A DNA stretch of 64,000 bases. Origin: Vulcanimicrobiota bacterium. GTDB lineage: Bacteria; Vulcanimicrobiota; JAJTBE01. Shown here in pieces: positions 26,854-63,209 of this stretch; within the stretch, counting starts at the first letter, position 1; each line of letters begins with the position of its first letter. A program made the position numbers and the translations under genes. Location: contig JAIORV010000201.1 of the NCBI GenBank assembly GCA_021107945.1, positions 1 to 64,000 of the forward strand, in the 5' to 3' direction. The notes below the pieces were generated by a model. The model worked only from the letters and a program-made list of their open reading frames with translations, had not been told where the DNA came from and made no database searches.

Positions 26854-27237
26854 ATGATATTCAATGAGCTGAAAAAACTGGATAAGGAAATTCGAGAGAG
26901 CAACGTTCAAGGTTGCGTTATGACCAATATCGCGGCGAATGTAAGGAGCTGCGGCTGCCGTCTTTTAACGCTTAATTTCGATGGACTTATTCTTGAGACA
27001 TGGAATAAAAATAATGAAAAATTCCTGAATATAATTGACAAGACAAGCTTTGACTGGAATATTATTTATCTCAACTCGTTTCCAGGCACTGACATAATAA
27101 ACAGAATCACGTTCAGGAAACTTTGCGACCATTGCCTCGAAAACTTCAAACTCGACGGAGTGATGGGGATGGGGTCCATTGTGTTTAAGGAAAGCAGGAA
27201 TTTACCTCTAAGGAAATTAGGAAATCAGGAGAATTGA
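26854..27237 (+). CDS. Small protein of unknown function
   Basis: 127 residues with five Cys (C21, CGC near 38-40, CDHC near 93-96), a spacing that could bind metal. No signal peptide or membrane helix. The ribosome site is weak (AAAAGATAG), so the exact start is uncertain. No family recognised. Confidence 0.55.
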   Translation: MIFNELKKLDKEIRESNVQGCVMTNIAANVRSCGCRLLTLNFDGLILETWNKNNEKFLNIIDKTSFDWNIIYLNSFPGTDIINRITFRKLCDHCLENFKLDGVMGMGSIVFKESRNLPLRKLGNQEN

Positions 27238-27488: not shown

Positions 27489-28913
27489 CTATTTTATCTT
27501 ATACAAATACTTATCCATCGAACCCACATAAACCGCTCTGTCTGCGGATATTGCCGGAGAAGAATATACCGCGCCGCCGGTCTCGATTTTCCATAATAGA
27601 TTCCCTTTCCCTGAAAGTCCGTAAACGTGGCGGTCATGGGAGCCTATATATATATTGCCTTTTGAATCTATGGCGGGAGAAGATTCAACCTTGAACCCTG
27701 TTTTGTATTTCCAATAAAGCTTTCCCACTCTGGATACTGCATAAACATTGCCGTCGGACGAGCCGAATACAATCTTGCCGTCTTTCCCAATGGCGGGAGA
27801 CGAAACGATCTCTCCCCCGGTTTTGAAACGCCATTTTAGATTTCCATTCTTTTTTACGGCATATAGATAACCGTCCCGGGATCCTGTGTATATCGTGCCG
27901 TCCCTGTCTATCGCAGGAGAGGAAATGATTCCACCTTCGGTTTTGTATTTCCATATAAGCTTTCCATTATTTGATATGGCATATATATTCCCGTCGCCGC
28001 ATGTGGCGATAACAACGTCGTTGTTGCCGGATTCTCCACCTGTTTGGAATCCTCCGCCGCCCCATATTGCAGGTGTTCCTATAACCTCGCCCCCGGTTTT
28101 GTATTTCCATAGGCATTTCCCCGCCGGATTAAGACAATAGATAAAACCGTCCTCACCGCCAAAAATGATGTTTCCTTTTTTATCTATGGAGCATCCGGAT
28201 GAGATGTAGTAGCCGGTTTTATATCGCCATTTCAGTTTTCCTTTTCGGTTAATTGCGTAAAGATGCTGATCGTCACTGCCGATATAGACAGTACCGTCGG
28301 AAGATACAGCGGGAGACGCGCTCACATAATAATCCGCACGGTATTTCCATTTCAGCTTCCCTTTTTTTGTAATTGCGTATATATTTGAGTCATCACAGCC
28401 GAATATAACAAGTCCTTCCCCCGTAACTACAGGCGATGAAAATATCTCGTGCCCGGCCTTGAATTTCCAGGCGACCTTTGCCCCTTTTCCGGGTCCTTTG
28501 AATGGGAAGTGGGAAATGGGAGGCGAGAGGGGAGAAAAGATGACCGCCCTCCGTAATCCGACATCCGTTATCGGGACGGGGACGTCCCTCCTACAGATCC
28601 GACCTCCGACCTCCGACTTCTGTCCTCCGTTCTCCGTTCTCTCATAGATCCACACTCTTATCTTTCTGTAATCTTGCCCGGAATTGTCTTTCTCATAGTA
28701 TTTCAATTTTTCTATCTCTCCCTTTTCTCTCAAAATCAAGAAAAGGTGATCTATCGACTGTTGCTTTCCCTCTTTTTGCGACAGGTTATCCAGAATTATA
28801 TAATCGGGTATATCTTGTTTAAACGCTTTTTCAAATTCTTGATAATTATATATAGGTGGAATCCTAATCCATCTTGCTCCTAACATAAATGCATCCCTGG
28901 GGTGGCGGCACAT
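27489..28913 (-). CDS. PQQ-type beta-propeller joined to a glycosyltransferase tail
   Basis: 474 residues in three parts. Residues 1-90 (MCRHPRDAFMLGARWI...) look like the missing soluble end of the adjacent PMT glycosyltransferase, in another frame. Residues about 91-137 are translated repeat DNA, including ICRRDVPVPITD from hairpin family A. Residues about 140-474 form a beta-propeller of eight or so blades with the repeat 'GKL.WKYKTG..I.SSPAI..DG.IY.GS.D..LYA'. No signal peptide is seen. The propeller itself is well conserved; as a separate protein it has no obvious start, so it may be a true fusion or a remnant joined by repeat insertion. Confidence 0.75.
   Translation of the reverse strand: MCRHPRDAFMLGARWIRIPPIYNYQEFEKAFKQDIPDYIILDNLSQKEGKQQSIDHLFLILREKGEIEKLKYYEKDNSGQDYRKIRVWIYERTENGGQKSEVGGRICRRDVPVPITDVGLRRAVIFSPLSPPISHFPFKGPGKGAKVAWKFKAGHEIFSSPVVTGEGLVIFGCDDSNIYAITKKGKLKWKYRADYYVSASPAVSSDGTVYIGSDDQHLYAINRKGKLKWRYKTGYYISSGCSIDKKGNIIFGGEDGFIYCLNPAGKCLWKYKTGGEVIGTPAIWGGGGFQTGGESGNNDVVIATCGDGNIYAISNNGKLIWKYKTEGGIISSPAIDRDGTIYTGSRDGYLYAVKKNGNLKWRFKTGGEIVSSPAIGKDGKIVFGSSDGNVYAVSRVGKLYWKYKTGFKVESSPAIDSKGNIYIGSHDRHVYGLSGKGNLLWKIETGGAVYSSPAISADRAVYVGSMDKYLYKIK
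28500..28645 (-). repeat. Repeat insertion inside a coding frame, with family A copy 7
   Basis: The insert comprises a 'gggaagtgggaaatgggagg' type word, hairpin A at 28568-28596 (stem GGGACG / CGTCCC) and 'gacctccgacttctgtcctccg' words, all of intergenic type, yet the frame stays open across it. Confidence 0.8.
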
Positions 28914-30754
28914 GACGGAAAGTCCGGATTCTTTTTGCTTTCTTTCACCACTTTCATCGCTATCGGGTGATAATTCCTGTACCTATAAGCGGTTCGCTCC
29001 TGATTTATTACAACAATGTTTTGAATATTTATTATAAACAGTACACAAAGCGAAAAAGCAAACAAGGCCTTTTGATACCTCGCTGGGTTTCTGAATATCC
29101 GTTGTAAATATGCAATTCCCTCGTAAAACAAGCCCAGGGCGATAAGCCACAGTATTATTGATCTTACGGAATAATAAAAATGACCTGTCAGGAAATTCGA
29201 GAGTTGAACCGGGTTTGCCGGTTTACCGGTGATGAGCCCTGCGGTGAGGAGAAGGAGTCCCAGTCCTGCCGTGGGTATTACAAGGAACCGGAATATTCTT
29301 TTCCAAATTATTGCAAGTAAGATTGTAAGGATACCGACTCCAATAAAAAGGAAGAGAAGAATCACCAAAGATCTGTGGATCGCAGTTCCGATCAGATGTA
29401 AATTAAGATGGAACCATCCGGGCATGAGGGCTTCCGACAGGTAAAAATACCAGGAGACAAATAATGATATCGGGATCAGGATCCATGAGAGTCTGAATCT
29501 CCACCGGGGATTATTCACCAGGATACCCCGTTCGTCCTCAAATATCATCTTCAATGCTCCGCCGGATAAAATTGCTACTATGGGGATCAGGAAGCCATAA
29601 TATCTTGGATCCGGCGCCCAGAAGCTTAGAAGAATTACTGGTATTGCGATGATGGAATACATTATAACGACGGTTGTCCTGGGATCTCTCCTGTGGGTTC
29701 TCACAAAGGGTATTGTCAACAGAATTAATAAGAGAAACAAGTTGAAATTCCGGATCAATGTCCATATATTTACCGGTATAGCCATGAAAATAGCCGGGAC
29801 AAAAATTTTCAAATTCTCTTTAAATATCTGTTCCGGTTTTTTGGGAATAAGCTTGCTCAACTTGTGATAACTGTATTCCCCGGGGGAGCCGAAATAATAA
29901 TTGAGTGTGCTATATGAGCCCTCTTTCCCGGATATAATCCAGTGAGCTTCATTCATATCGTAAAGTTCTTTTGTGGGAGAAGTTAAATGAATGCTGCCTG
30001 ATGTTTTATATAGAATAACCAGGTAGGGCGACATTATTAACGCTAAAGTGATAACAAAAGTGGCAAGTTTTTGAAGGGAGACTTTCATATTTTCTTTTCG
30101 TCTTCTCCCCAGCATCCTGACAAATAAAAGAAAAAATGTCGCTCCTGCCGCCGCAATCGCCTCAAAACGGGTCATATACGAGAGTCCCCAGAATATTGCA
30201 CAAAGGAAATAATCACGCCATTTCCCCGCTTCAAAAGCAATAACCGAGAAATACACGGCGGTTGTAAATAATAAAAGGTAGAGGGATTCGGTAAGACCTC
30301 CGGTTGAGATGATAATTAAAAGGGGAAATGAAATGATAATAATGGCAGACAACTCGCCGGCGGGATCCCCCCATATCCGGCGCGCAAGCAGAAAGACCGG
30401 GACAACGAGGAGGCATCCGCAAATGAGCGAGACAAGCACTAGAGAAAGCTCCACGTTACCTGTAATTATATAGAAAAGCGTTGATACAAGAGCAAAAAGC
30501 GGAGAACGAAACTCTATGCCATAGTAGTGATCATTGTCAACGGGAAATGAAAATATATTTCCTGTAAATATGTTGCTTTTTATATCCCTTACAAGGTTCC
30601 CATAATAATGGGTATCCAACTCCATTGTTAGTTGCTGTAAGAAAATCAGTCTGAATAAAAGCGCAACAATTATCAGAAAAAGCAAGCGTTTTTTAAAATC
30701 AATATTAAGGTACTTTTTGTAAGTATCGGTCAATTTATGCTTAATGTTCATCAT
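28880..30754 (-). CDS. PMT/ArnT-type membrane glycosyltransferase, frameshifted end
   Basis: 624 residues, about 12 membrane helices; the first outside loop contains the acidic motif MELDTHYYGNLVRDI expected of GT39/GT83 enzymes. The last residues (NPDFPSCAATPGMHLC) are probably out of frame: the other frame at the same place gives MCRHPRDAFMLGARWI and a soluble domain like those that end this family, continuing to about 28640. So a one-base indel seems to have split the gene, unless the two frames are joined by programmed slippage or a sequencing error. Acceptor unknown. Confidence 0.8.
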   Translation of the reverse strand: MMNIKHKLTDTYKKYLNIDFKKRLLFLIIVALLFRLIFLQQLTMELDTHYYGNLVRDIKSNIFTGNIFSFPVDNDHYYGIEFRSPLFALVSTLFYIITGNVELSLVLVSLICGCLLVVPVFLLARRIWGDPAGELSAIIIISFPLLIIISTGGLTESLYLLLFTTAVYFSVIAFEAGKWRDYFLCAIFWGLSYMTRFEAIAAAGATFFLLFVRMLGRRRKENMKVSLQKLATFVITLALIMSPYLVILYKTSGSIHLTSPTKELYDMNEAHWIISGKEGSYSTLNYYFGSPGEYSYHKLSKLIPKKPEQIFKENLKIFVPAIFMAIPVNIWTLIRNFNLFLLLILLTIPFVRTHRRDPRTTVVIMYSIIAIPVILLSFWAPDPRYYGFLIPIVAILSGGALKMIFEDERGILVNNPRWRFRLSWILIPISLFVSWYFYLSEALMPGWFHLNLHLIGTAIHRSLVILLFLFIGVGILTILLAIIWKRIFRFLVIPTAGLGLLLLTAGLITGKPANPVQLSNFLTGHFYYSVRSIILWLIALGLFYEGIAYLQRIFRNPARYQKALFAFSLCVLFIINIQNIVVINQERTAYRYRNYHPIAMKVVKESKKNPDFPSCAATPGMHLC

Positions 30755-31322: not shown

Positions 31323-32693
31323 ATGAAAAATATAATCGGAGTGAGCAAGACGAAAAAGAAGCATCATGTGGCTATAATTGGCGGAGGTTTCACAGGAATA
31401 GCCGCCGCGTACGAACTTGCATCAAAGGGTATCCGCGTGACCGTCCTGGAGAAAGAGAAGGAAATAGGCGGTCTTTCGTCGGGATTTCTTCTAAACGGGA
31501 CTCCCCTTGAAAAGTTCTATCATTTCTGGTTTACCGGAGACCGGCACATTCTGAACCTTGCGCAGGAGCTTGATATCCGTGACAAGATTACAGGCAGCCG
31601 GGGACGCACGGGGATTTATTATGACGGAAATATTTACAGGTTCAGCTCGCCGCTCGATCTCCTCAAGTTCACCCCGTTGAATTTCCTTGATCGGGTAAAA
31701 TTGGGTGTTCAGGTTCTGAAATCCCATGTAATTAATAGCTGGGAAGAACTGGACCCTGTAACGATAAAGGAGTGGTTTTCCCGGATTGGAGGGGATGAAA
31801 TATATCGGGTGGTCTGGAGTCCTCTCCTGGAAGGAAAATTCGGCAAATTCGCCCCGGAAATATCCGCCGCCTGGTTATGGAATAAGTTCGAAAGAAGGGG
31901 TAAAAGCAGAAACGGCGGCGGCGTTGAGAAATACTTTTATTATGAGGGGGGATTTCCCGCATTCCTGGATGAAGTTGCCGCAAAAATCAAGAAATATGGA
32001 GGAGAAATAAGAACCGGGAGTCCGGTAATTTCAATAGAGGTTGAAGACGGTGAGGTGTCAAGTGTCAGGACACAAAATGATCTCATTAAAACCGACGCCG
32101 TTATAATGACAGCCGCCCTGCCGATAATTGCGAACATTGTAGAGCCGCATGTAAGATCTGAATATGTGGAATCTCTTCGAAGAATCAAGTTTCTTGCAAA
32201 CATCTGCCTCATACTGGAGCTTGAGAAAAACCTGTCCGATATTTTTTGGCTTAATATAAACGACCCAGGATACAACTTCGTGGGAGTGATTGAGCATACA
32301 AATTTCATTTCCCCGGAGATTTACGGTGGGAGGCACATTGTATATCTCACGAAATACCTCGATGAAACCGACAGGTTTTACAAGATGGAAGATATTGAGA
32401 TCAAAGAAATATTTATCTCGGATTTAAAAAAGATATTTAAAGATTTAAGGGACGAGATGATACTGAATAGCTATGTGTTTCGTTCCAGGTATGCCCAACC
32501 CGTTGCGGTACGTAATTACAGCAAAATGATCCCCTCGATAAGAACTCCCATAAAAGGACTTTATATATCCACAATGGCGCAGATTTACCCTGAGGACAGA
32601 GGCACGAACAGCCCGGTACGTGATGGGAGAAAAGTGGCAAGGGAAGTCATATCCGACCTGATAAACGGCAATAAAACTTCTCCCCTTTTATGA
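31323..32693 (+). CDS. FAD-dependent oxidoreductase (amine oxidase/desaturase-like)
   Basis: 456 residues from ATG 31323; an earlier frame from 31263 lacks a ribosome site too. The dinucleotide fold starts HVAIIGGGFTGIAAAYELAS and continues EKEKEIGGLSSGF, as in amine oxidases, phytoene desaturases and UDP-galactopyranose mutase-like enzymes. The C-terminal FAD motif is present near GLYISTMAQIYPEDRGTN. It sits among sugar genes, so a role in sugar or polyprenyl modification is plausible but not shown. Its stop overlaps that of the convergent radical SAM gene by a few bases. Confidence 0.83.
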   Translation: MKNIIGVSKTKKKHHVAIIGGGFTGIAAAYELASKGIRVTVLEKEKEIGGLSSGFLLNGTPLEKFYHFWFTGDRHILNLAQELDIRDKITGSRGRTGIYYDGNIYRFSSPLDLLKFTPLNFLDRVKLGVQVLKSHVINSWEELDPVTIKEWFSRIGGDEIYRVVWSPLLEGKFGKFAPEISAAWLWNKFERRGKSRNGGGVEKYFYYEGGFPAFLDEVAAKIKKYGGEIRTGSPVISIEVEDGEVSSVRTQNDLIKTDAVIMTAALPIIANIVEPHVRSEYVESLRRIKFLANICLILELEKNLSDIFWLNINDPGYNFVGVIEHTNFISPEIYGGRHIVYLTKYLDETDRFYKMEDIEIKEIFISDLKKIFKDLRDEMILNSYVFRSRYAQPVAVRNYSKMIPSIRTPIKGLYISTMAQIYPEDRGTNSPVRDGRKVAREVISDLINGNKTSPLL

Positions 32694-34085
32694 ACTGAGA
32701 AACGTGGGCTTACCCTCTCTTGTGATTTCTTTACCATATAATCTCCCGGCAACTGACCTGAAATATTTTTTCATATATATCAACCTGTCTATCCTTACCA
32801 TTTCTTTGAAAAGCCAGAAAAGTCCCCGCATAATCTCATCAGGAGTCATCTTTTTGGGTTGGAAATTCATATGAATCCATGTGAATTTCTCCCAATCGCG
32901 GGTCAATATTCGTCCCTCTCTCTCCATTCTGTCGTAAAACCTTGTGCCGGGAAACGGGCAAAGAGCGGAGACCTCCGTATCAACAAGATTCGTCTCGTAT
33001 GCGAAATCCCTTATTTGTCTGAAAACAGATATATCATCGTCATCAAAACCCACGATAAAAAGGCCTGATACACCCACTCCATGAGATTGAATAACATCTA
33101 TCGCCTGCCTGTAGTCCTTGATCTTGCTGTGTTTCCAGGGATTATGCCCCTCAAGATTTTTCGGGTTTATTGTTTCAAGCCCTATAAGCAACAGGGCGCA
33201 ATGGGATTGATAGAGGAGATCAAGCAATTCCTTGTCTTTCGCAACTGCGATATCGCAATAACATTCCCAGAGAATATTAAGGGGAATGAGTGACCGGATC
33301 AACTCCTTTGAATATTCCACATCAATAAACATATTCTCATCGGTAAACGAGATAAAAGGCTGTTCAACCATCGATTTTACCGTTTTTATCTCGTTCACAA
33401 CCTGTTGAACGGTCTTGTGCCTGTGAACCGCGCCATATATATGGGGAAGAAAACAGAAATCGCATTTCCGGGGGCAACCCCTTGTTGCCTGGATGGGGAA
33501 ACGGTTGTATTTTTCGATATAGTTAAATTGATTGAGAAGATCAAACCTCGGAGGTGGGAGTAAGGTCAGGTCAACCAGTTTTTTGGAACGATATACTTGT
33601 TTGGCATTGCCTTTTTGAAAGTCGTCAAGAAATTCCCTGAATGTATCCTCCGCTTCCCCGACAAAGATGAAGTCCGCATGCTCTCCGGCCTCCTCCGGCA
33701 GGGCTGTCGGGTGTATGCCTCCCATTGCCACGGGGATCCCTCTATCTCTATATATATCAGCCATCTGATAACTTCTTTTATACTGAGTGTTTATCACCGA
33801 GAGGCATACCAGGTCGAAGTCTTCTTCGTGAACGATGCGGTCCATGGTCTCCTTCAACAGGTATTCCTCATCCACATATAACAAGTCATGAGATGGATCA
33901 ATCACCCCTGCAAGGGTAATAAGCCCCAGGTTGGGCATCCATTCCATATCTTCCATGAGGAAAATAATCTCACGATGGAGTATTTTTTCCAATTCTTCAA
34001 AAATGCTGTCGGCATAGAATCTTTCCGCACCTCGTGCGCTGATAAGAGCAATTTTCAATTTCAAAAAATCCTTTCTTCTTTTCAT
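32688..34085 (-). CDS. B12-binding radical SAM protein next to a RiPP-like precursor
   Basis: 465 residues from ATG 34085; alignment with its paralogue at 24460-25773 would favour a TTG near 34058-34064, behind AAAGGA. A B12-binding-like domain (about 10-160) precedes the radical SAM core with CPRKCDFC (about residue 205) and the FQPKKMTPDEIMRGLFWLF end of DUF4070-type enzymes. It is divergent from a strongly expressed 40-codon peptide gene 140 bp away, and may modify that peptide, for instance by C-methylation. This last point is inference. Confidence 0.87.
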   Translation of the reverse strand: MKRRKDFLKLKIALISARGAERFYADSIFEELEKILHREIIFLMEDMEWMPNLGLITLAGVIDPSHDLLYVDEEYLLKETMDRIVHEEDFDLVCLSVINTQYKRSYQMADIYRDRGIPVAMGGIHPTALPEEAGEHADFIFVGEAEDTFREFLDDFQKGNAKQVYRSKKLVDLTLLPPPRFDLLNQFNYIEKYNRFPIQATRGCPRKCDFCFLPHIYGAVHRHKTVQQVVNEIKTVKSMVEQPFISFTDENMFIDVEYSKELIRSLIPLNILWECYCDIAVAKDKELLDLLYQSHCALLLIGLETINPKNLEGHNPWKHSKIKDYRQAIDVIQSHGVGVSGLFIVGFDDDDISVFRQIRDFAYETNLVDTEVSALCPFPGTRFYDRMEREGRILTRDWEKFTWIHMNFQPKKMTPDEIMRGLFWLFKEMVRIDRLIYMKKYFRSVAGRLYGKEITREGKPTFLSS

Positions 34086-34150: not shown

Positions 34151-34179
34151 TTGAACAATTCGAAAAATTATGCTATAAT
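34151..34179 (+). promoter_or_regulatory. Near-consensus sigma-70 promoter of the small peptide gene
   Basis: -35 TTGAAC (34151-34156), exactly 17 bp spacer, -10 TATAAT (34174-34179), 46 bp before the start codon. It is the best housekeeping promoter I could find in the window. Confidence 0.8.
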
Positions 34180-34225
34180 ATTGGTTCGAGAGGCTAACAG
34201 GCCGACCGAGGGAGGGTAAATAACT

Positions 34226-34348
34226 ATGAAGAAGAAATACGAAAAACCCTCAATTACGACTTTCGAGGAGAGGACAGTAGTGGAGAACCTGGACGATGTT
34301 AAAGTGTCCGGGCCACCTCCTTCCGCCTGGAGTTGCGTGAGAGGATGA
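34226..34348 (+). CDS. Candidate RiPP precursor peptide, 40 residues
   Basis: The peptide begins MKKKYEKPSITTFEERTV and ends SGPPPSAWSCVRG. The YxKPxI segment is typical of leader peptides of several modified-peptide classes; an acidic middle (EERTVVENLDD) leads to a Pro-rich tail with one Trp and one Cys, a plausible core. A near-consensus promoter and an excellent ribosome site (GAGGGAGGG, 34208-34216) make this a real gene. The divergent neighbour is a B12 radical SAM enzyme, and a methyltransferase lies about 0.8 kb downstream. No RRE/PqqD domain, protease or exporter is seen nearby. Class undetermined. Confidence 0.7.
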   Translation: MKKKYEKPSITTFEERTVVENLDDVKVSGPPPSAWSCVRG

Positions 34349-35122: not shown

Positions 35123-35983
35123 TTATTCTCTCTCCCCTGTCACCATAAGTCCACCTGCGCCAAGAAAACGAGGATCGTTACAGTGTTTCATCTCAAGATC
35201 AATTACAATTTGCTCCCATCTTTTTGTATCTGTGCCCGTGCGAATCGAATCATCGGGAGTAAATATACATTCCGACAGGACTCTTATATTACAAAAACCG
35301 GCGGCAGAGGCATCTTTTTCAAGCTCTTCCGGAAGCATACTTACAATTCCTGAATGCTGACTGTTATTTACGGCGGCTTTCTCAAGCGATTCAAGATCGC
35401 CATTTATTGCAAACAAGTGCATTGCCCCCAGGGTATTGTGAATCCCGTCGGCTATCATCTTTCCCCCGGGCTTTAATATGCGTGCCATTTCCTTTAAAGC
35501 TCTTCCAGGATTCCCACAATACACAACCGCTCCGCCCATTGAAAACACATGGTCGAAGGAGTTGTCGGGGAAGTCGGACATGTCCAGTATATCTCCCTTC
35601 ACAATCTTCAGCCTGTCAGATACACCCGCAGATTCCGCCTTCTCCTCCGCCAGGCGAAGCCAACCCTCCGCATGGTCGAGAACGGTGATATTATTGAAAC
35701 CCTCCCTTGCAAGGGGAATCGCCTTCCTGCCCGTGCCTCCACCGGCATCAAGAATCCTTGCATTTTTCGAAACACCTCCCAACTCACGCCTGAGATGCTC
35801 CAACCCAATCAGGTTATAAAGCCTGAATGCGACAATAATCCGGTCTCTATATTCTTCGAGCCTTGCAAATTCATAACTGATCATCGGCATAACTTTCTTC
35901 CAGTCCCAGTCCGTCCAATGATCTGCAGTATCAATATCAAGGTCATCTATAAGGTATTGATAATCCGACTCCCATATACTCAT
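35123..35983 (-). CDS. Class I SAM-dependent methyltransferase
   Basis: 286 residues. SAM-binding motif I ARILDAGGGTGRKAIPLA, then VLDHAEGWLRLAEEKA (motif II region) and SFDHVFSMGGAVVYC, followed by RILKPGGKMIADGI. This is the small-molecule Methyltransf_11/25 type. Its ATG overlaps the stop codon of the TPR gene, so translation is coupled. It lies in the same neighbourhood as a radical SAM enzyme and a RiPP-like precursor on the other strand; the acceptor is unknown. Confidence 0.9.
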   Translation of the reverse strand: MSIWESDYQYLIDDLDIDTADHWTDWDWKKVMPMISYEFARLEEYRDRIIVAFRLYNLIGLEHLRRELGGVSKNARILDAGGGTGRKAIPLAREGFNNITVLDHAEGWLRLAEEKAESAGVSDRLKIVKGDILDMSDFPDNSFDHVFSMGGAVVYCGNPGRALKEMARILKPGGKMIADGIHNTLGAMHLFAINGDLESLEKAAVNNSQHSGIVSMLPEELEKDASAAGFCNIRVLSECIFTPDDSIRTGTDTKRWEQIVIDLEMKHCNDPRFLGAGGLMVTGERE

Positions 35984-37066: not shown

Positions 37067-38764
37067 ATGAACATAAAGCTTATTGTTTTCAGCCTCCTGG
37101 GCGGTCTTGCCCTGTTCCTGTTCGGCATGAAAGTCTTAAGCACGGGACTCCAGATGGCATTTGGAAACAAGATTAAGATCCTCATGGAAAAACTTACCGA
37201 CAACAAACTTGCCGGCGTTGGAATCGGAGCGTTGGTCACTGCTATCATTCAAAGCTCCAGCATTACAACGGTAACGCTTGTGGGACTTATCAACGCCGGG
37301 CTTATCACGCTTGCCCAATCCATTCCCATGATCATGGGAGCGAATATAGGAACCACTGTAACCGCACAGCTAATCGCATTCAAGGTCGGAAAATATTCTC
37401 TTCCTATCATTGCCATAGGATTCGTCCTGTATTCTCTTGAGAGATACAGGATCCCGTTTTTAGAAAAGTACCTGGCAAAGAAAGACGAGGGGAATTCCAA
37501 CAAGGACATGGACAGGAACAGAGGAAAAAATAACACTTTAAAATATGTAGGGCAGATTATCCTGGGCTTCGGTATTCTCTTCCTGGGTATGACCCTCATG
37601 TCATCGGAATCAAAGCAACTCGTGGAGAATCCCGGTGTGGTAAAATTCCTTGCTGAGATGGGAAAAGTCCCTATACTTGGAATAATAGCCGGGGCGTTGT
37701 TCACCAGTATCATCCAGAGTAGTTCCGCCACATCAGGACTGGTGATCTCTATGGGCATGGGGGCAAAAAACCTGATCAGCCTGAAATCGGCGGTTACGAT
37801 TATCATGGGAGCTAACCTGGGCACCTGCATCACGGTTATCCTTGCATCAATCGGCTCCACTCTCTCAAGTAGAAGAGCGGCGCTGTCTCATGTACTTTTC
37901 AATGTTATCGGAATATTGTTATTCGTTCCTTTTATAGGTTTGTTTGTCGGTCTTATTCAGAAGACATCCCCCGACATGGCAAGACAGATTGCAAACGCCC
38001 ACCTTTGTTTTAATATTATAACCACACTCGTACTTCTTCCCCTGTCCGGTGTTTTACTGTTTGTTGTGAAGAAACTTATGCCGGGAGAGGACGTCAGGGT
38101 TGAGAGCGGGGCGAAGTACCTTGACGACCTCACTCTTGAGACTCCTGCCGTAGCACTTTCGATGGCGGAAAAAGAGACGGTGAGAATGGCAAAAATCACT
38201 CTCACAATGATAGAAGCGAGCAGAATGGCGCTTTTCGAGAAAAGCAAGAAGCATATTGAGATAGTAACAGGAAAAGAAAAAGTTGTTGATGAACTGGATG
38301 ATAAAATAGAGGTATTTCTGAAAAAAATAGACAACGAAGCTCTATCTGACAGGCAAAAGACAAACCTGGCGATACTAAACCATATTATATCGGACATAGA
38401 AAGAATCGCCGACCATGCAAATAATATGTGTGAACTTGCCGAACGTCGGATGAGCGATAAGATCAGGTTTTCCGACGAAGCGTTCGCTGAGTTGAAGGAC
38501 GTATTTGACAAGGCCGACGAATCGGTTGAGCTTTCTATAACAGCGATAACAAAATATGATGAAAAATCCATTAATAGGATAATGGAAATAGAAAAAGATG
38601 TTGACACAATGGTCGAACAGATGGAAGAAAATCATTTTGAGCGGTTGGCGCAAGAGTTATGCAGCGCCGAGGCAGGACCCCTTTATGTCGATGTTTTGAG
38701 GAACCTGGAAAGAATTACCGACCACACTCATAACATTGCATGCGCAAGAAGCTTCGGCTTTTGA
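37067..38764 (+). CDS. Na/phosphate cotransporter with PhoU-like domain, copy 1
   Basis: 565 residues. Eight or so membrane helices contain two inverted repeats with the QSSS motif (AIIQSSSITTVT and SIIQSSSATSGLV), the hallmark of Na/Pi cotransporter II (NptA/YjbB) proteins. The cytoplasmic end (about 365-560) is a PhoU-like helical bundle. It is followed by a second copy whose upstream DNA also matches, showing a recent tandem duplication of about 1.84 kb. The PhoU-like end may gate uptake in response to phosphate. Confidence 0.93.
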   Translation: MNIKLIVFSLLGGLALFLFGMKVLSTGLQMAFGNKIKILMEKLTDNKLAGVGIGALVTAIIQSSSITTVTLVGLINAGLITLAQSIPMIMGANIGTTVTAQLIAFKVGKYSLPIIAIGFVLYSLERYRIPFLEKYLAKKDEGNSNKDMDRNRGKNNTLKYVGQIILGFGILFLGMTLMSSESKQLVENPGVVKFLAEMGKVPILGIIAGALFTSIIQSSSATSGLVISMGMGAKNLISLKSAVTIIMGANLGTCITVILASIGSTLSSRRAALSHVLFNVIGILLFVPFIGLFVGLIQKTSPDMARQIANAHLCFNIITTLVLLPLSGVLLFVVKKLMPGEDVRVESGAKYLDDLTLETPAVALSMAEKETVRMAKITLTMIEASRMALFEKSKKHIEIVTGKEKVVDELDDKIEVFLKKIDNEALSDRQKTNLAILNHIISDIERIADHANNMCELAERRMSDKIRFSDEAFAELKDVFDKADESVELSITAITKYDEKSINRIMEIEKDVDTMVEQMEENHFERLAQELCSAEAGPLYVDVLRNLERITDHTHNIACARSFGF

Positions 38765-38905
38765 TAAAACTTATGCCAATGCCAGGGTATTACCGTTTCC
38801 GGATTTTTGCAGGGAATAATAATGTAAATATAAAATATAGAAATAAAATCAAGCAATAATTGTTGACAATATTCCAGCAAAATCGACAAGGAAAGATAAT
38901 TTGAC

Positions 38906-40591
38906 ATGAACATAAAGCTTATTGTTTTCAGTCTCATAGGCGGGCTTGCTCTGTTCTTGTTCGGCATGAAAATCTTGAGCACAGGGCTCCAGATGGCATT
39001 TGGAAACAAGATTAAGACCCTCATGGAGAAACTCACTAACAATAAGCTTGCCGGTGTTGGAATTGGAGCATTGGTTACAGCTATCATTCAAAGCTCCAGC
39101 ATTACAACGGTAACACTTGTGGGACTTATCAACGCCGGGCTTATCACGCTTGCCCAATCCATTCCCATAATTATGGGAGCGAATATAGGAACCACCATAA
39201 CCGCACAGCTAGTCGCATTCAAGGTTGGAAAATATTCTCTTCCTATCATTGCCATAGGATTTGTCCTGTATTCTCTTGAGAGATACAGGATCCCGTTTTT
39301 AGAAAAGTACCTGATAAAGAAAGGCAAGGAAGATTCCGACAAGGCCAGGGGAAAGAAAAATACTTTAAAATATGTGGGGCAGATTATCCTGGGTTTTGGT
39401 ATTCTTTTCCTGGGCATGACCCTCATGTCATCGGAGTCGAAGCAACTCGTGGGGGATCCCAGGGTGGTAAACTTTATTGCTGAAATGGGAAAAGTCCCCT
39501 TGCTTGGAATAATTACCGGGGCATTATTCACCGGTATCATACAGAGTAGTTCCGCCACATCGGGATTGGTGATCTCTATGGGCATGGGAGCGAAAAAGCT
39601 TATCGACCTGAAATCGGCATTTACAATTATCATGGGAGCAAATATCGGTACCTGCATCACGGTCGTTCTGGCGTCAATCGGCTCCACTCTGTCCAGTAAA
39701 AGAGCGGCACTCTCTCATGTGCTCTTTAATGTTGTCGGAGTATTATTATTCCTCCCCTTTATAGGCTTGTTTGTCGGTCTTATTCAAAAGACATCCCCCG
39801 ATCTGGGAAGACAGATTGCAAACGCTCACCTTTGTTTTAAAGTTGTAACCACACTCATACTTCTTCCCCTGTCCGGTGTTTTACTATTTGTTGTGACGAA
39901 ACTTATACCGGGAGAGGAAATCAAGGTCAGAGGCGGAGCCTTATACCTTGACGACCATACCCTTGAGACTCCGGCGATAGCACTTTCGATGGCGAAAAAA
40001 GAGACAGTGAGAATGGCAAGAATCACTCTCACAATGATAGAAGCAAGCAGGATGGCACTTTTTGAGAAAAGCCCGAAGCATATTGAGGTTGTAAAGGGAA
40101 AAGAAAAAGTTGTTGATGAACTGGATGATAAAATAGAGATATTTCTGGAGAAAATTGACAACGAAGCTCTATCTGACCAGCAAAAAACAAATCTGGCAAT
40201 ATTAAAACATATTATATCGGACATTGAAAGAATCGCCGACCATGCAAATAATATATGTGAGCTTGCCGAACGTCGAATAAGCGATAAAATCAGGTTTTCC
40301 GACGAAGCGTTCGCTGAGTTGAAGGAAGTATTTGACAAAGCCGATGAATCAGTAGAGCTTTCCATAGCAGCGATAACAAAATATGATGAAAAATCCATCA
40401 ATAAGATAATGGAATTAGAAAAAGATGTTGACAAGATGGTCGAACAGATGGAAGAGAATCATTTTGAGCGGTTGACGCAAGAGTTATGCAGTGCCGAGGC
40501 AGGTCCCCTCTATGTCGATGTTTTGAGGAACCTGGAAAGAATTACCGACCACACTCATAACATTGCATGCGCCAGAAGCTTCGGCTTTTAA
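38906..40591 (+). CDS. Na/phosphate cotransporter with PhoU-like domain, copy 2
   Basis: 561 residues, closely similar to copy 1 along the whole length, with both QSSS motifs (AIIQSSSITTVT, GIIQSSSATSGLV) and the PhoU-like end. The main difference is a shortened, charged loop near residues 140-155, where copy 1 has extra Asn/Lys/Asp residues. The first 30 codons and the 100 bp upstream ('gcagggaataataatg', 'ttccagcaaaatcgacaagg') are shared with copy 1. Both frames are intact, so both are probably used. Confidence 0.93.
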   Translation: MNIKLIVFSLIGGLALFLFGMKILSTGLQMAFGNKIKTLMEKLTNNKLAGVGIGALVTAIIQSSSITTVTLVGLINAGLITLAQSIPIIMGANIGTTITAQLVAFKVGKYSLPIIAIGFVLYSLERYRIPFLEKYLIKKGKEDSDKARGKKNTLKYVGQIILGFGILFLGMTLMSSESKQLVGDPRVVNFIAEMGKVPLLGIITGALFTGIIQSSSATSGLVISMGMGAKKLIDLKSAFTIIMGANIGTCITVVLASIGSTLSSKRAALSHVLFNVVGVLLFLPFIGLFVGLIQKTSPDLGRQIANAHLCFKVVTTLILLPLSGVLLFVVTKLIPGEEIKVRGGALYLDDHTLETPAIALSMAKKETVRMARITLTMIEASRMALFEKSPKHIEVVKGKEKVVDELDDKIEIFLEKIDNEALSDQQKTNLAILKHIISDIERIADHANNICELAERRISDKIRFSDEAFAELKEVFDKADESVELSIAAITKYDEKSINKIMELEKDVDKMVEQMEENHFERLTQELCSAEAGPLYVDVLRNLERITDHTHNIACARSFGF

Positions 40592-58011: not shown

Positions 58012-58107
58012 ATGAGAACAATAAAAATTGATATAGCTGATGAAATTATAGGTGTTTGTGGTTCTGAAGAAACACTCTCCGACGTTTCATCGGATCTGTT
58101 TTCATGA
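58012..58107 (+). CDS. Small peptide gene coupled to a radical SAM gene
   Basis: A 31-codon frame, MRTIKIDIADEIIG followed by VCGSEETLSDVSSDLFS, whose TGA overlaps the ATG of the radical SAM gene in ATGA. An ATG five codons upstream is also possible. The ribosome-site-like GTGGGAAG comes from a genome repeat word. It could be a peptide substrate, a leader that couples translation, or chance. Evidence rests on the overlap alone. Confidence 0.4.
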   Translation: MRTIKIDIADEIIGVCGSEETLSDVSSDLFS

Positions 58108-59714
58108 ATACCGACGTAGTCCTTGTGAATCCGCCGATTCTTGATCGTCGCAGTATCGAGATCCCTACCCGCGCGCATAACCCGTTCGAGCATATAGGTC
58201 TCGGGTATATCGCCTCATACCTGCGAAAATATGGTTATGAAGTAAAAATAATTGATTCTTATATTGTAAATAGAACGATAGCCGAGACCGTAAGCTTGAT
58301 TGAGAAAGAATCCCCCCGCCTTGTGGGTATGTCGGCGACACACGAGTTTCTCACCGCCGCAGTTGATATCGCCGGATGTTTGAGGGAAGACGGATATGAC
58401 GGTCACATCACCCTTGGGGGGTACCTCTCCACATTCCTCCATGACAAAATTATAGCGGAATACCCTTGCTTCGATTCTATTGTAAGGGGCGAGGGCGAGA
58501 TAACAATAGTCGAATTGATGAAAAACCTCTCCGCCCCGTCAGAATGGAATTCCATCGCCGGTCTGACATACAGGGACAACGGGGAGATCAGGGTGAATCC
58601 GCCAAGGGATCTCATACCGGATCTTGATGTACTTCCACATCCCGCGAGGGATACACTTCCCGATCTTGCCAGGATGTACGATTACAGCGCAATATCGTCG
58701 TCACGGGGATGTCCGATGAACTGCTCGTTTTGCAGCATTCATAAATTCTATCGGCAGTCAAAGGGAGCTTGCTGGAGAGCGAGATCGCCGCAAAACATCG
58801 CTGACGAGATCGAAATTCTCACCAAAAAACACAATGTGCAACAGGTCGCATTCACCGATGACAACTTTTTCGGAATACCGGGAGCAGGCAAGAACAGGGC
58901 GTTGAAAATTGCACGGGCAATCCTGAGCAGGGGAGTAAAAGTTGAGTTCTCCGTTCTTTGCAGGGTTAACGACCTGGAAGAGGGATTGCTTCGCCTGTTG
59001 AAGATATCCGGTTTGCGTTCCCTCTTTGTGGGGTTCGAGTCAGGATGCAACAGGGCGTTAAAAACGTTCAACAAGAAGATTACCGTGGAGCAGAATCGCA
59101 AGGCCGTTGATCTCATAAAAAAAGTTGGAATAAAATGTTTCCCGGGATTCATCATGTTCGACCCATACACGACACTTGAAGAGATAAAGAAAAACATAGA
59201 ATTTGTCGATTATGTCGAGAAAGACTCGGATTTGATCAAGATAGACGACCTGTTGGGAAGCCTCCAGCCTTTTACGGGAACTTCCATAAGGGAGAAGCTT
59301 GAAAGAGAGGGAAGGATCATATATCCCGATTCCCCGCTTCTCCGGATGGATGTTATTCCCACATACGAAATAGAGGATCCCCGTGTCGAAACCCTCAAGA
59401 GAGCAATGAAAAATAACCGCAACAGCCTGTCAAGACCCCTGTTCGACGATTTCAACCGGTTGAAGAGAAATACTCCCGATGATAAACGGAGTGAATTCAA
59501 ACTGGTTGCCGATAAATTCAACAACCTCGTGCAGAGGATGAGGGATTTTGAGAAGGCATTTTTCAGGGAATGCATAGCTTTCATCGAAAAAAATCCCAGG
59601 ATACAGCCTGAGGAATCATACAGACTTGAAGAAATGGCCGTGCCTGAAGTAAAAAGCTTGAACCGGGAGATTGAGGAGATTAATCGGGAGATCGAGTTTG
59701 AAAGACAAGAATAA
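58104..59714 (+). CDS. B12-binding radical SAM protein
   Basis: 536 residues. The B12-binding-like domain (about 1-150: VVLVNPPILDRRSIE, HIGLGYIASYLRKYGYEVKI, HITLGGYLST) is followed by a radical SAM core with CPMNCSFC (about residue 200) and a C-terminal coiled coil (FNRLKRNTPDDKRSEFKLVA onward). It is more distant from the other two B12 enzymes here. Three U32-family genes follow on the same strand, so a shared modification pathway is likely. Substrate unknown. Confidence 0.87.
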   Translation: MNTDVVLVNPPILDRRSIEIPTRAHNPFEHIGLGYIASYLRKYGYEVKIIDSYIVNRTIAETVSLIEKESPRLVGMSATHEFLTAAVDIAGCLREDGYDGHITLGGYLSTFLHDKIIAEYPCFDSIVRGEGEITIVELMKNLSAPSEWNSIAGLTYRDNGEIRVNPPRDLIPDLDVLPHPARDTLPDLARMYDYSAISSSRGCPMNCSFCSIHKFYRQSKGACWRARSPQNIADEIEILTKKHNVQQVAFTDDNFFGIPGAGKNRALKIARAILSRGVKVEFSVLCRVNDLEEGLLRLLKISGLRSLFVGFESGCNRALKTFNKKITVEQNRKAVDLIKKVGIKCFPGFIMFDPYTTLEEIKKNIEFVDYVEKDSDLIKIDDLLGSLQPFTGTSIREKLEREGRIIYPDSPLLRMDVIPTYEIEDPRVETLKRAMKNNRNSLSRPLFDDFNRLKRNTPDDKRSEFKLVADKFNNLVQRMRDFEKAFFRECIAFIEKNPRIQPEESYRLEEMAVPEVKSLNREIEEINREIEFERQE

Positions 59715-59784
59715 AAAAGAATATTTACTTGCTTAAATCCTTTGTGGTCTTTGTGGCCTTTGCGGTAAATAGAGAATAAAACCT

Positions 59785-60759
59785 ATGCATATAATCGCCC
59801 CTGCAAGATCAATAACGATGCTGTCCCGGGTCATCAAGGCCGGGGCTGATATGGTTTATGTCGGCTTAAAGGGATATTGCAGGAAAGAAAAAGAGTCCAT
59901 AGACCTCGATACTTTAACTACATTCTGCAAGATTGCAGAAGATAACAATGTCAGGGTGATTGTTGCGTTCAATAAGCTTCCCCGGATCGGATTAACCTGG
60001 AAATTTATCAGAGGCGTTGAAAAAGCTTTGTCGGCCGGGGCGAACGGGATTATATTAAACGACACCGGACTTATCAACCTCATTCGCAAAAAATACCCCC
60101 ATCTTTACATTATGGCAAGCATAGGCATGTCACCGTTGAACTGGAGAGAGGTCAGGTTCATTGCCGACTCCGGAGCAAGCACGGTTCTTTTGTCCGAGTT
60201 CCTTGAGTTGGATGAGATCAGAGAAATCAAAGATAAATGTGATGTCGGACTTGAGCTTTTTGCAATGGGATTGCGGGAATTCGGATATACGGGAAAATGT
60301 ATCCTCAGCAGTTACCATCGGCAGATATATCGTGATAATTTGATTGTCGGCAGTGCGAAAAGAGGCGGCACATGCTCGGATATTTGCAGGACAGGATTCA
60401 GGTTATATGGAAGACGGAAGACGGAAGTCGGAGGTCAGAGGTCAGAGGTCAGAGGTCAGATCTGTAGGAGGGATGTCCTCATCCCGATAAACGGAGGACG
60501 GATGCCGGAGGACGGAGATCGGATAACGGATACAGACTCCCGTCAAGACTCAAATGAAATCAATCTTCGTTTCCAACCATTCTCTGTATTGGAACGGGAT
60601 CTTAATCTCACAGGGGAAACGCAATTTTTTCACACAAATGATAAATTAAGAGACCTGCTTCCATATATAGACATATTCAAAATATGGCAGGGATTTTTGA
60701 AAGATGAAGAGCTTTACGGTATAATTGAAGCGATGAGAGAAATGAGAAACGGAAAGTGA
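59785..60759 (+). CDS. Peptidase U32-family protein with repeat insertion
   Basis: 324 residues. U32 TIM-barrel start (HIIAPARSITMLSRVIKAGADMVYVG), then YTGKCILSSYH and GTCSDICRTGF, Cys residues that probably hold an Fe-S cluster. From about residue 208 to 253 the frame passes through intergenic-type repeat DNA, giving RRKTEVGGQRSEVRGQ and ICRRDVLIPING, before the family's end resumes (FFHTNDKLRDLLPYIDIFKI). Either the protein tolerates the insert in a surface loop, or the gene is decaying. The ribosome site is weak. Confidence 0.8.
   Translation: MHIIAPARSITMLSRVIKAGADMVYVGLKGYCRKEKESIDLDTLTTFCKIAEDNNVRVIVAFNKLPRIGLTWKFIRGVEKALSAGANGIILNDTGLINLIRKKYPHLYIMASIGMSPLNWREVRFIADSGASTVLLSEFLELDEIREIKDKCDVGLELFAMGLREFGYTGKCILSSYHRQIYRDNLIVGSAKRGGTCSDICRTGFRLYGRRKTEVGGQRSEVRGQICRRDVLIPINGGRMPEDGDRITDTDSRQDSNEINLRFQPFSVLERDLNLTGETQFFHTNDKLRDLLPYIDIFKIWQGFLKDEELYGIIEAMREMRNGK
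60412..60545 (+). repeat. Repeat insertion inside a coding frame, with family A copy 10
   Basis: 'gaggtcagaggtcagaggtc' words, hairpin A (60464-60490; stem variant GGGATG-TCCT-CATCCC) and 'ggacggatgccggaggacgg' words, without any stop codon in the frame of the U32 gene. Confidence 0.85.
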
Positions 60760-61185
60760 GACTGTCGAAAAAGCGGTTTGAAGCGGTGTGAGTCAAGTAT
60801 TAATATACCACAAAGTCACGGAGAACACGGAGTTTTACTTTTATCAGGACTTACGCATTTTGTCATCCTGAGCGGAAAACGATCAATTTACTTTAATAGG
60901 CATACCTTTCTCAGGAACGGGGCTTGCATACCTCCGATGTATTAATCAGCGAAGGATCTCTATCCATGAATAGCGATCTCTCAGGACAACATTCAGGAGA
61001 TTCTTCGCTATGTGAATCCCCGTACATCAAGGAAATCCCGTCCTTCAGAAAATCATCGGATTAAAGTAACTCTCTCGTGTATCGCTCAGAATGACAGGGC
61101 TAACTCCTCATTTTGCGTAAGTCATATTTTATATTCTTCGTGAGCTTCGTGTCTTCGTGGTGAAAATTTACAAGGGATTTATATC
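60760..61185. other. Intergenic region with MITE-like element
   Basis: A 'ccacaaagtcacggagaacacgg' word (about 60808), the MITE-like element (60849-61122) and 'cttcgtgtcttcgtggtg' just before the next gene. No gene. Confidence 0.7.
60849..61122. mobile_element. MITE-like element with terminal inverted repeats, copy 2
   Basis: 274 bp, bounded by ACTTACGCA and TGCGTAAGT (11-12 bp with flanks). 'gtcatcctgagcggaaaacg' near the left end is answered by 'cgctcagaatgac' near the right end; 'cagcgaaggatctc' by 'gagattcttcgctatg'. It encodes nothing and lies between two U32 genes. Confidence 0.72.
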
Positions 61186-62238
61186 ATGAACAAACCTAAA
61201 ATACTTGCTCCCGTCAGCAGCCTGGAAATGGCGAGAACTGTTCTTGAAAACGGAGCGGATATTGTTTACGCGGGAGTGAAGGGATGGTCTCTTCGTCCCA
61301 ATATGTTCGAGGTGAAAAACGATGAGATGGGGGAGATCATTAAACTTGTAAAATCTTATAATAAAAAAATCTTCCTTGCCATGAACTGTTTTTACCGCTC
61401 AACGGAGATCCCCAAAGCCATCGGCATTATCAAGCATTTTTACTCCGCCGGAATTGACGGTGTTATCACAAGCGAATACGGGCTTATATCCCTTATCAGG
61501 AAGAAATTCCCCGATTTGCAGGTTCATGTCAGCGTTCAGACTTCCGCGTCAAGCTCGATAGATATGGCATTCTACAAAAAAATGGGGGTTACATCGCTCG
61601 TCCTGCCAAGAGATATGCTGGATCTTTCAATAGACAACATCAGGGAACTGGCAGGGAAGGGTGTTACAATCGAGGTCTTCGCCGTCGGCGATGATTCCTC
61701 GCATTACGACGGCAGGTGCATGCTCAGCGCATATCTTTTTCAGAAAGCTCTGCCCGACGACTCAACGGGAAGAGAAGAGCTTATCGTGGGAAATGCCAAC
61801 AGATGCGGATATTGCTACCTTGCCTGCAAAAGAAAATGCTCGATTGAGAGCAAAACAGGCAAGCTTTTAAAAAGGGGAGATTTATCCCTTCATCGAAGGA
61901 TACCTGAGCTTATAAAGGCGGGAGTTGGAGTTTTTAAGGTGCAGGGAAGAGAATTCCCCCTTCATCTTGTCGGAAAGCTTATTGCAGCATTCAGGGGACT
62001 GCTTGACAACATCGACGACCCGGACAAGCGCTCCGGATATATCTCCGTTCTGGACGATCTTGTAGAGCTGAAGCAGATTATCGCTTCAAATCATCTCTGG
62101 CTCCTTGCTAAAAGCCAATCTCCAACCTGGAAGAAGCTGAGAAAATATATCGAGAAACCCTGGGACAACCTGACAACGGGTCTGTGGTTGAAAGGAAAGG
62201 GCAAAACTCTCATTAGAAAAATAGGACGGATGATTTAA
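61186..62238 (+). CDS. Peptidase U32-family protein
   Basis: 350 residues. U32 start PKILAPVSSLEMARTVLENG, then the Cys set CMLSAYL, ANRCGYCYLACKRKC, a classic four-Cys pattern for an Fe-S cluster as in UbiU/UbiV, TrhP and RlhA. The C-terminus (FKVQGREFPLHLVGKLIAAF) matches the barrel end. AAGGGAT precedes the ATG. The next U32 gene starts 5 bp after its stop. U32 proteins act in oxygen-independent hydroxylation and tRNA/rRNA modification; which one applies is unknown. Confidence 0.87.
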   Translation: MNKPKILAPVSSLEMARTVLENGADIVYAGVKGWSLRPNMFEVKNDEMGEIIKLVKSYNKKIFLAMNCFYRSTEIPKAIGIIKHFYSAGIDGVITSEYGLISLIRKKFPDLQVHVSVQTSASSSIDMAFYKKMGVTSLVLPRDMLDLSIDNIRELAGKGVTIEVFAVGDDSSHYDGRCMLSAYLFQKALPDDSTGREELIVGNANRCGYCYLACKRKCSIESKTGKLLKRGDLSLHRRIPELIKAGVGVFKVQGREFPLHLVGKLIAAFRGLLDNIDDPDKRSGYISVLDDLVELKQIIASNHLWLLAKSQSPTWKKLRKYIEKPWDNLTTGLWLKGKGKTLIRKIGRMI

Positions 62239-62243
62239 TTAGT

Positions 62244-63209
62244 ATGGATAACGAGAATAAAAAATACAAGGTTTCCCTGGCGATCTCGGAAGCTGAGGGA
62301 CTTCCCCGGGTTGACTTTGACAAAATAGACCTTCTCATCCTGGGAAATCCTTTTTGCAAAATGACTCCGGGCAATCCCCTGGGCAGTCTTGAGTTAATGG
62401 AAAAATCGATTAACCTTATCGGATCTCACCTTGACAAAACTATTGTTTCTCTCCCTTTATGTCCTCTTGAAAATGAATTGAGCTATATTCAGGATGTCCT
62501 GTCATTATTATCGGACATGGGAGTCCATGGCGTGGAGGTACACAGTCCCGGTATGGCGATGAGGGTTGAGACCCGCTTCCCGAAGCTTAAAATTTATTTT
62601 GGAAGCTTTGCAAATGTCTATACCGTTCACTGCGTGGAGATAATGCAGGAGATGGGAGTGATAGGGGGCACGCTTCCATACGAGTTGAACATAGATGAAA
62701 TCGAATTTATTCATAAAAACATCGACTTTCAAATCTGGCTTCCCATATTCGGTCCGTTCCCCATTGCCTTCAGTCAGTATTGCTTTTTCCACCCGGGTCA
62801 GGTACGATACCCGTTTAAATGCGATCACGAATGCTCGGAAGAAGTACTGGTTGACTATGGCGCGGGCAAAAAAGTTCTTCACAAGGGACGTGCCATTTTT
62901 TCGCATAGATGTCTCAACATGCTCAAACACCTGCCCATGCTCCTGAACAAGGGATTCAGTCATTTCCGTATCGAAGGGCTGATTCTGGATGTTGGCTCCC
63001 TGAATGAGATTGTTGATATTTTCCACGAGCATATTAATAAAATCATAGAAACAGGTGATAAAACCACACCTGAAATACCTGCTCCCGATTCCAGGTTGTC
63101 AAAATTCTCTCCCCGTGGATTCTGCAACGGCTTCTATTTCACACGAAGGGGTATGGATTACGTTGAGAGCGTAATGGATTGGGACGGCAGACTTAGATAT
63201 AAATACTAA
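62244..63209 (+). CDS. Peptidase U32-family protein, UbiV-like
   Basis: 321 residues, more divergent than its neighbours. A barrel with LILGNPFCKMTPG and VHGVEVHSPGMAMRVETRFP strands, then Cys at FSQYCFFHP, FKCDHECSEE and FSHRCLN, a spacing like the Fe-S ligands of UbiU/UbiV. It starts 5 bp after the previous stop, so the pair resembles the obligate UbiU-UbiV heterodimer, although no ubiquinone gene is nearby. The pair may form one enzyme. Confidence 0.78.
   Translation: MDNENKKYKVSLAISEAEGLPRVDFDKIDLLILGNPFCKMTPGNPLGSLELMEKSINLIGSHLDKTIVSLPLCPLENELSYIQDVLSLLSDMGVHGVEVHSPGMAMRVETRFPKLKIYFGSFANVYTVHCVEIMQEMGVIGGTLPYELNIDEIEFIHKNIDFQIWLPIFGPFPIAFSQYCFFHPGQVRYPFKCDHECSEEVLVDYGAGKKVLHKGRAIFSHRCLNMLKHLPMLLNKGFSHFRIEGLILDVGSLNEIVDIFHEHINKIIETGDKTTPEIPAPDSRLSKFSPRGFCNGFYFTRRGMDYVESVMDWDGRLRYKY

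Follow-up and report, generated by a model that had tools for sequence, protein, structure and literature searches.

A probable RiPP precursor with an invariant tail, and its predicted PqqD, radical SAM and Sec11-type protease machinery, in Vulcanimicrobiota

Introduction

A constant leader followed by a core that changes is the mark by which most RiPP families are identified; cofactor-type RiPPs, as exemplified by PQQ and mycofactocin, have fixed cores. B12-radical SAM enzymes also operate in RiPP pathways, where they can cross-link aromatic residues, as established for PbsB (PMC12257519), and the biphenomycin clusters contain an MNIO enzyme together with an FHAFRF core (PMC12257519). Our literature searches on DUF4070 with RiPP, and on PqqD with signal peptidase and TPR, recovered no description of a system of the type considered here.

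Here we analyse a 64,000-nucleotide stretch of a Vulcanimicrobiota genome (contig JAIORV010000201.1, positions 1 to 64,000; hereafter the window), in which an initial annotation had proposed a short RiPP-like precursor. Comparison across the phylum supports this interpretation through a gene cluster in a second genome, where an S26 protease accompanies a PqqD-type RRE and radical SAM enzymes of the SPASM and B12 types. We estimate the probability that positions 34226-34348 encode a RiPP precursor served by PqqD, radical SAM and S26-TPR machinery at roughly 0.72, while our confidence in any particular chemistry of tail modification is low.

Results

The gene is located at 34226-34348 (+), with an ATG at 34226 and a stop codon ending at 34348, and as read directly from the DNA it encodes MKKKYEKPSITTFEERTVVENLDDVKVSGPPPSAWSCVRG, a peptide of 40 residues which, judging from the translation and its homologue, comprises a leader with YEKPSI and the tail PPPSAWSCVRG. 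It is preceded by a sigma-70-like promoter with an extended -10 element (34151-34179, +), where TTGAAC starts at 34151, a 17-nt spacer follows, TATAAT ends at 34179 and TG is found ahead of the -10, together matching the consensus at 10 of 12 positions. A strong ribosome binding site, GGGAGGG (34210-34216, +), is placed 9 nt before the ATG. The near-consensus promoter, ribosome site and 40-residue ORF of the initial annotation were hence all recovered in place. The precursor is covered by no Pfam or NCBIfam model, Rfam yielded no match within the window, and a search of the window's genome revealed no second copy of the peptide.

Searches of 98 relatives, and then of 149 genomes of the phylum, identified a single real homologue, MGYEKPVVMSFEAEKMEKEATLDKKVSNPPPSAWSCVRG, in a genome of another family (G004), and this copy was also the sole one confirmed by exact peptide words across 84,980 species (record JAMCWD010000001.1), a scan that members with a changed tail would escape. 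No homologue was detected in viral contigs and plasmids. A second match (L004, E 0.016) is located antisense within an ORF resembling lipoyl synthase and was rejected as chance, and the remaining sub-threshold matches, mainly to the tail half and mostly within longer reading frames, were likewise taken as chance. The short length of the window ORF, and the antisense ORF that overlaps it, could in principle indicate a spurious frame with fortuitous similarity. This explanation is already contradicted, and we consider its probability negligible, as the G004 copy matches over 36 residues (tblastn, E 2e-8) at an intergenic site, promoter and ribosome site are in place, and the changes in the tail are synonymous only. 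The window ORF is thus a real gene, since a match of this kind, located between genes in the genome of a different family, is more than chance would give. The G004 gene is similarly equipped, with a promoter TTGACT-N17-TATATT (10/12, extended -10 with TG), the strong ribosome site GGGAGGTGA and a terminator-like hairpin 3' of the gene.

The two peptides differ strikingly in how their halves are conserved. The tail PPPSAWSCVRG is identical at 11 of 11 positions despite five synonymous codon differences, and, as judged from this one pair of genomes, on which both conservation and co-occurrence are based as two family members are known, it is under strong purifying selection. The leader agrees at 12 of 27 aligned residues, with YEKPx[IV] kept. 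A conserved tail accompanied by a non-conserved leader had been named beforehand as refuting the proposal; the tail is indeed the most conserved part. Similarly, the suggested search for homologues beside DUF4070-type genes, with variable tail and conserved leader, returned one homologue, next to another kind of B12-radical SAM gene and with a fixed tail. Such fixation argues against a variable bacteriocin-like family and not against a RiPP, because the cores of cofactor-type RiPPs are fixed as well.

The surroundings of the G004 gene are more informative than those of the window. Divergent from the peptide, a compact cluster, several genes of which have overlapping ends, encodes in order a B12-binding radical SAM enzyme, a 91-residue PqqD protein, a PqqD-radical SAM-SPASM protein, an S26-type protease with TPRs and a PMT-type glycosyltransferase. 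Among solved structures, OxsB is the only strong relative of the B12 enzyme, and the lasso RRE TbiB1 is the nearest to the PqqD pair. For PqqD_rel_X (HPr-rel-A PqqD system) the scores are 34.7 and 32.9 bits, a narrow miss of the cut-off of 35. The SPASM enzyme carries its PqqD domain at the N-terminus, and the protease matches human SEC11A across the catalytic region, where the SM and HRV motifs line up. Judged by its components, as annotated from sequence, this locus qualifies as a RiPP gene cluster.

The corresponding enzymes of the window's genome are scattered, at a distance of 24 kb and on a different contig. The B12-binding radical SAM enzyme at 58104-59714 (+), 24 kb from the precursor, is orthologous to the B12 enzyme encoded divergently from the G004 precursor (47% over 488 aa, E 3e-166), and is likely a dedicated maturase. 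The initial annotation had instead paired the peptide with the adjacent, divergent gene at 32688-34085 (-), which is indeed present with both Pfam domains (B12-binding and Radical_SAM) and matches DUF4070 just under the cut-off (21.7 vs 22 bits). As stated, this pairing is not supported: the G004 B12 enzyme shares 24% identity with 32688-34085, compared with 47% for 58104-59714, and the DUF4070-like family is multicopy, with seven members in the window's genome and eight in G004, none of the eight in the peptide cluster. The methyltransferase reported within 1 kb also exists (35123-35983, -), although no evidence supporting its relevance emerged.

The gene at 32688-34085 may nevertheless have a role, because the window's genome encodes a paralogue (45% identity) together with PqqD and S26-TPR on contig C17, where a U32-like protein, PqqD, the DUF4070-like B12 enzyme and S26-TPR follow in close succession, putatively as one operon. 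The C17 proteins are related to those of the G004 cluster, with 34% identity over 405 aa for S26-TPR and 33% over 61 aa for PqqD. One may therefore conceive that the peptide is a RiPP precursor matured by its divergent neighbour, with 58104-59714 serving something else, as the adjacency in the window and the paralogue in the C17 operon would suggest. We regard this as unlikely, considering that the G004 peptide adjoins a different enzyme family, orthologous to 58104-59714, and that the family copies in the two genomes include none in the G004 peptide cluster. No leader-motif precursor candidate was found in the vicinity of the C17 operon, nor around the other DUF4070-like genes, leaving the window peptide as the natural candidate substrate of the C17 operon. 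For the PqqD-SPASM fusion no orthologue was found in the window's genome, the best SPASM match being without the PqqD part.

Two further window genes may be connected. The PMT_2 glycosyltransferase at 28880-30754 (-) is the sole window match of the G004 cluster's PMT (27% over 547 aa, E 4e-34) and is tentatively assigned to the pathway. More speculatively, a U32/UbiV-like protein 3' of the 58104 enzyme (62244-63209, +; UbiV-like match below cut-off) is related to a member of the C17 PqqD operon (L052 10104-11045; 24.5% over 314 aa, E 7e-33), and could be involved.

Several further features of the window deserve mention. Three U32/UbiV-like genes are located 3' of the B12-radical SAM gene (58104-63209, +), and the relative of the last one in the C17 PqqD operon hints at an oxygen-independent hydroxylation step. 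The PMT gene seems to run on, in another frame, into the start of a beta-propeller ORF at 27489-28913 (27489-30754, -), as might result if a fused gene carried a frameshift or a sequencing error. A tandem duplicate at 37067-40591 (+) encodes two membrane proteins of 561-565 aa, 88% identical and Na/phosphate-cotransporter-like by inspection, and the protein at 26854-27237 (+) exceeds the Pfam DUF5402 cut-off (40.4 vs 25 bits), a family of unknown function.

We then profiled the 149 genomes of the phylum, with the window's genome as G000. G000 and G004, and no other genome of the set, combine the precursor with high-scoring members of the 58104-type B12-radical SAM family (1090 bits, vs 282 for the next genome) and of the S26-TPR protease (about 300 vs 50 bits). 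By LeuRS identity, G001 (66%), G002 (63%), G004 (64%) and G028 (62%) are about equally close to the window's genome, and the nearly complete G002 and G028 are devoid of the precursor, the B12-radical SAM enzyme and the S26-TPR protease. With two positives in the profile, this co-occurrence is suggestive and falls short of proof.

The start of the leader recurs at PqqD loci elsewhere in the phylum. In 395 kb around PqqD genes we detected 10 distinct short peptides with a ribosome site and a [Y/W]xxPx[IV] start, as compared to one in 477 kb of control loci (binomial p 0.002, or 0.005 without the G004 homologue). They include MVYERPIIASKEDYGVFFCCVDSEEKSC (G002) and MIYKKPEIVNLKDIAYAIGVPALCFGG... 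(G003), the second of which adjoins PqqD, SPASM-type radical SAM and S26-like proteins (the radical SAM and S26 assignments being by inspection). Following from this enrichment, the window peptide conforms to a rule of its phylum, with a tail of its own.

Other peptides of this kind were encountered along the way. In G002, the 28-residue peptides MVYERPIIASKEDYGVFFCCVDSEEKSC and MAYERPKVASKEDYGVFFCCCDSNEKSC are arranged in tandem downstream of a PqqD-containing ORF (L145 2077-2299, +), apparently forming another RiPP precursor family. The G003 locus (L150 8634-12500) looks like a related cluster with a different core: it combines PqqD and an S26-like protease with SPASM-type radical SAM proteins, and its YKKPEI peptide, 78 residues long, is rich in Gly, Cys and Pro. 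On contig C94 of the window's genome, a PqqD gene adjoins an ATP-grasp-like protein and an FslC/LysA-like PLP decarboxylase (L053 8145-9518, -, and 10560-10796, -), and the N-terminus of the decarboxylase, MKYETPVIQKCQTGLMNKFG..., resembles a RiPP leader fused to an enzyme.

Discussion

Could the peptide function without any modification, as a small protein or signalling peptide with a C-terminus active as such, the radical SAM neighbourhood being coincidental? The strong selection on the tail, the appearance of both genes as strong single-gene transcription units and the dispersal of the enzymes in the window's genome are all congruent with such a role. We nonetheless find it rather improbable, as it leaves aside the YEKPx[IV] start common to other peptides at PqqD loci, the compact peptide-modification cluster at the sole homologue and the co-occurrence with B12-radical SAM and S26-TPR.

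We instead favor the RiPP precursor, for which the following route can be envisaged. The YEKPSI segment of the leader would dock on a PqqD-type RRE protein, the C17 PqqD being the best candidate in the window's genome and the adjacent PqqD that in G004. Radical SAM enzymes would then modify the tail PPPSAWSCVRG, with Trp35 and Cys37 as the likeliest sites; these would be a cobalamin-dependent enzyme (58104-59714) and, in G004, a PqqD-SPASM enzyme. Finally, the leader may be removed by a cytosolic S26 protease of the Sec11 type that carries fused TPRs. For the 58104-type B12 enzyme, methylation, cross-linking and other chemistry would all be compatible with the data.

Considering the invariant tail, the pathway probably yields a single, unchanging molecule that resembles a cofactor or a signal, and not a diversifying antibiotic. 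A bolder proposal, which we deem improbable yet worth stating, is that the tail gives rise to a new ribosomal cofactor, or a metal or redox carrier built on Trp and Cys, via paired B12- and SPASM-radical SAM enzymes and release by the Sec11-type TPR protease, in the manner of PQQ and mycofactocin but of separate origin. That the core has stayed the same between genomes whose corresponding enzymes share 33-47% identity points towards a conserved biochemical role. Furthermore, the findings add an undescribed precursor family, accompanied by an unusual enzyme set (B12-radical SAM, RRE-SPASM and a Sec11-type protease with TPRs), from a bacterial phylum about which little is known, and illustrate that testing the enzyme encoded next door, however obvious, can mean testing the wrong partner.

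Several described systems resemble the locus in part. Lasso peptides with a stand-alone PqqD-type RRE (TbiB1) share the YxxPx[LIV] leader motif, here YEKPSI, and the RRE sequence similarity, which might suggest a lasso precursor. This assignment is however already contradicted by SGPPPSAWSCVRG, which is devoid of an Asp/Glu ring acceptor to close a macrolactam, and appears very improbable. Among the five scanned G004 cluster proteins there are radical SAM enzymes in place of a cyclase, and none of the five matches a lasso cyclase or B2 leader peptidase family. Sactipeptides and ranthipeptides with RRE-fused SPASM maturases of the StsB type are approached by the G004 SPASM enzyme with its N-terminal PqqD, for which StsB is the best NCBIfam match; the score is nevertheless 115 bits against a cut-off of 625, the tail holds one Cys, and the fusion is confined to G004 of the two genomes as far as our search of the window's genome extends. 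Biphenomycin-type (PMC12257519) and ApyD-type (NF050148) systems likewise combine an RRE and B12-radical SAM with a short precursor, but among the cluster proteins scanned here there is neither an MNIO enzyme nor an FHAFRF core, and the ApyD match reaches 138 bits relative to a cut-off of 750.

Mycofactocin and PQQ offer a parallel in overall design, with a short precursor, an invariant C-terminus, a PqqD-type RRE and a SPASM radical SAM enzyme, and the G004 cluster also has a protease and a glycosyltransferase. They differ in that PPPSAWSCVRG is without mycofactocin or PQQ core residues, and in the B12-radical SAM and Sec11-type protease added here. Specifically, the G004 SPASM enzyme scores 111 bits against the MftC-type cut-off of 265 and the tail differs from the known MftA C-terminus, while the Glu/Tyr core of PqqA is absent, with no Tyr in the tail, and PqqE yields 74.7 bits versus a cut-off of 381. 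Because lasso peptides, mycofactocin, PQQ and StsB-type sactipeptides are each set apart from it by at least one test, we refer to the system as a probable RiPP of an undescribed type, one with two general hallmarks of the class: a 40-aa precursor with a conserved YEKPx[IV] start and an invariant tail, and a recognition element and modifying enzymes that accompany it, adjacent in G004 and dispersed in the window's genome.
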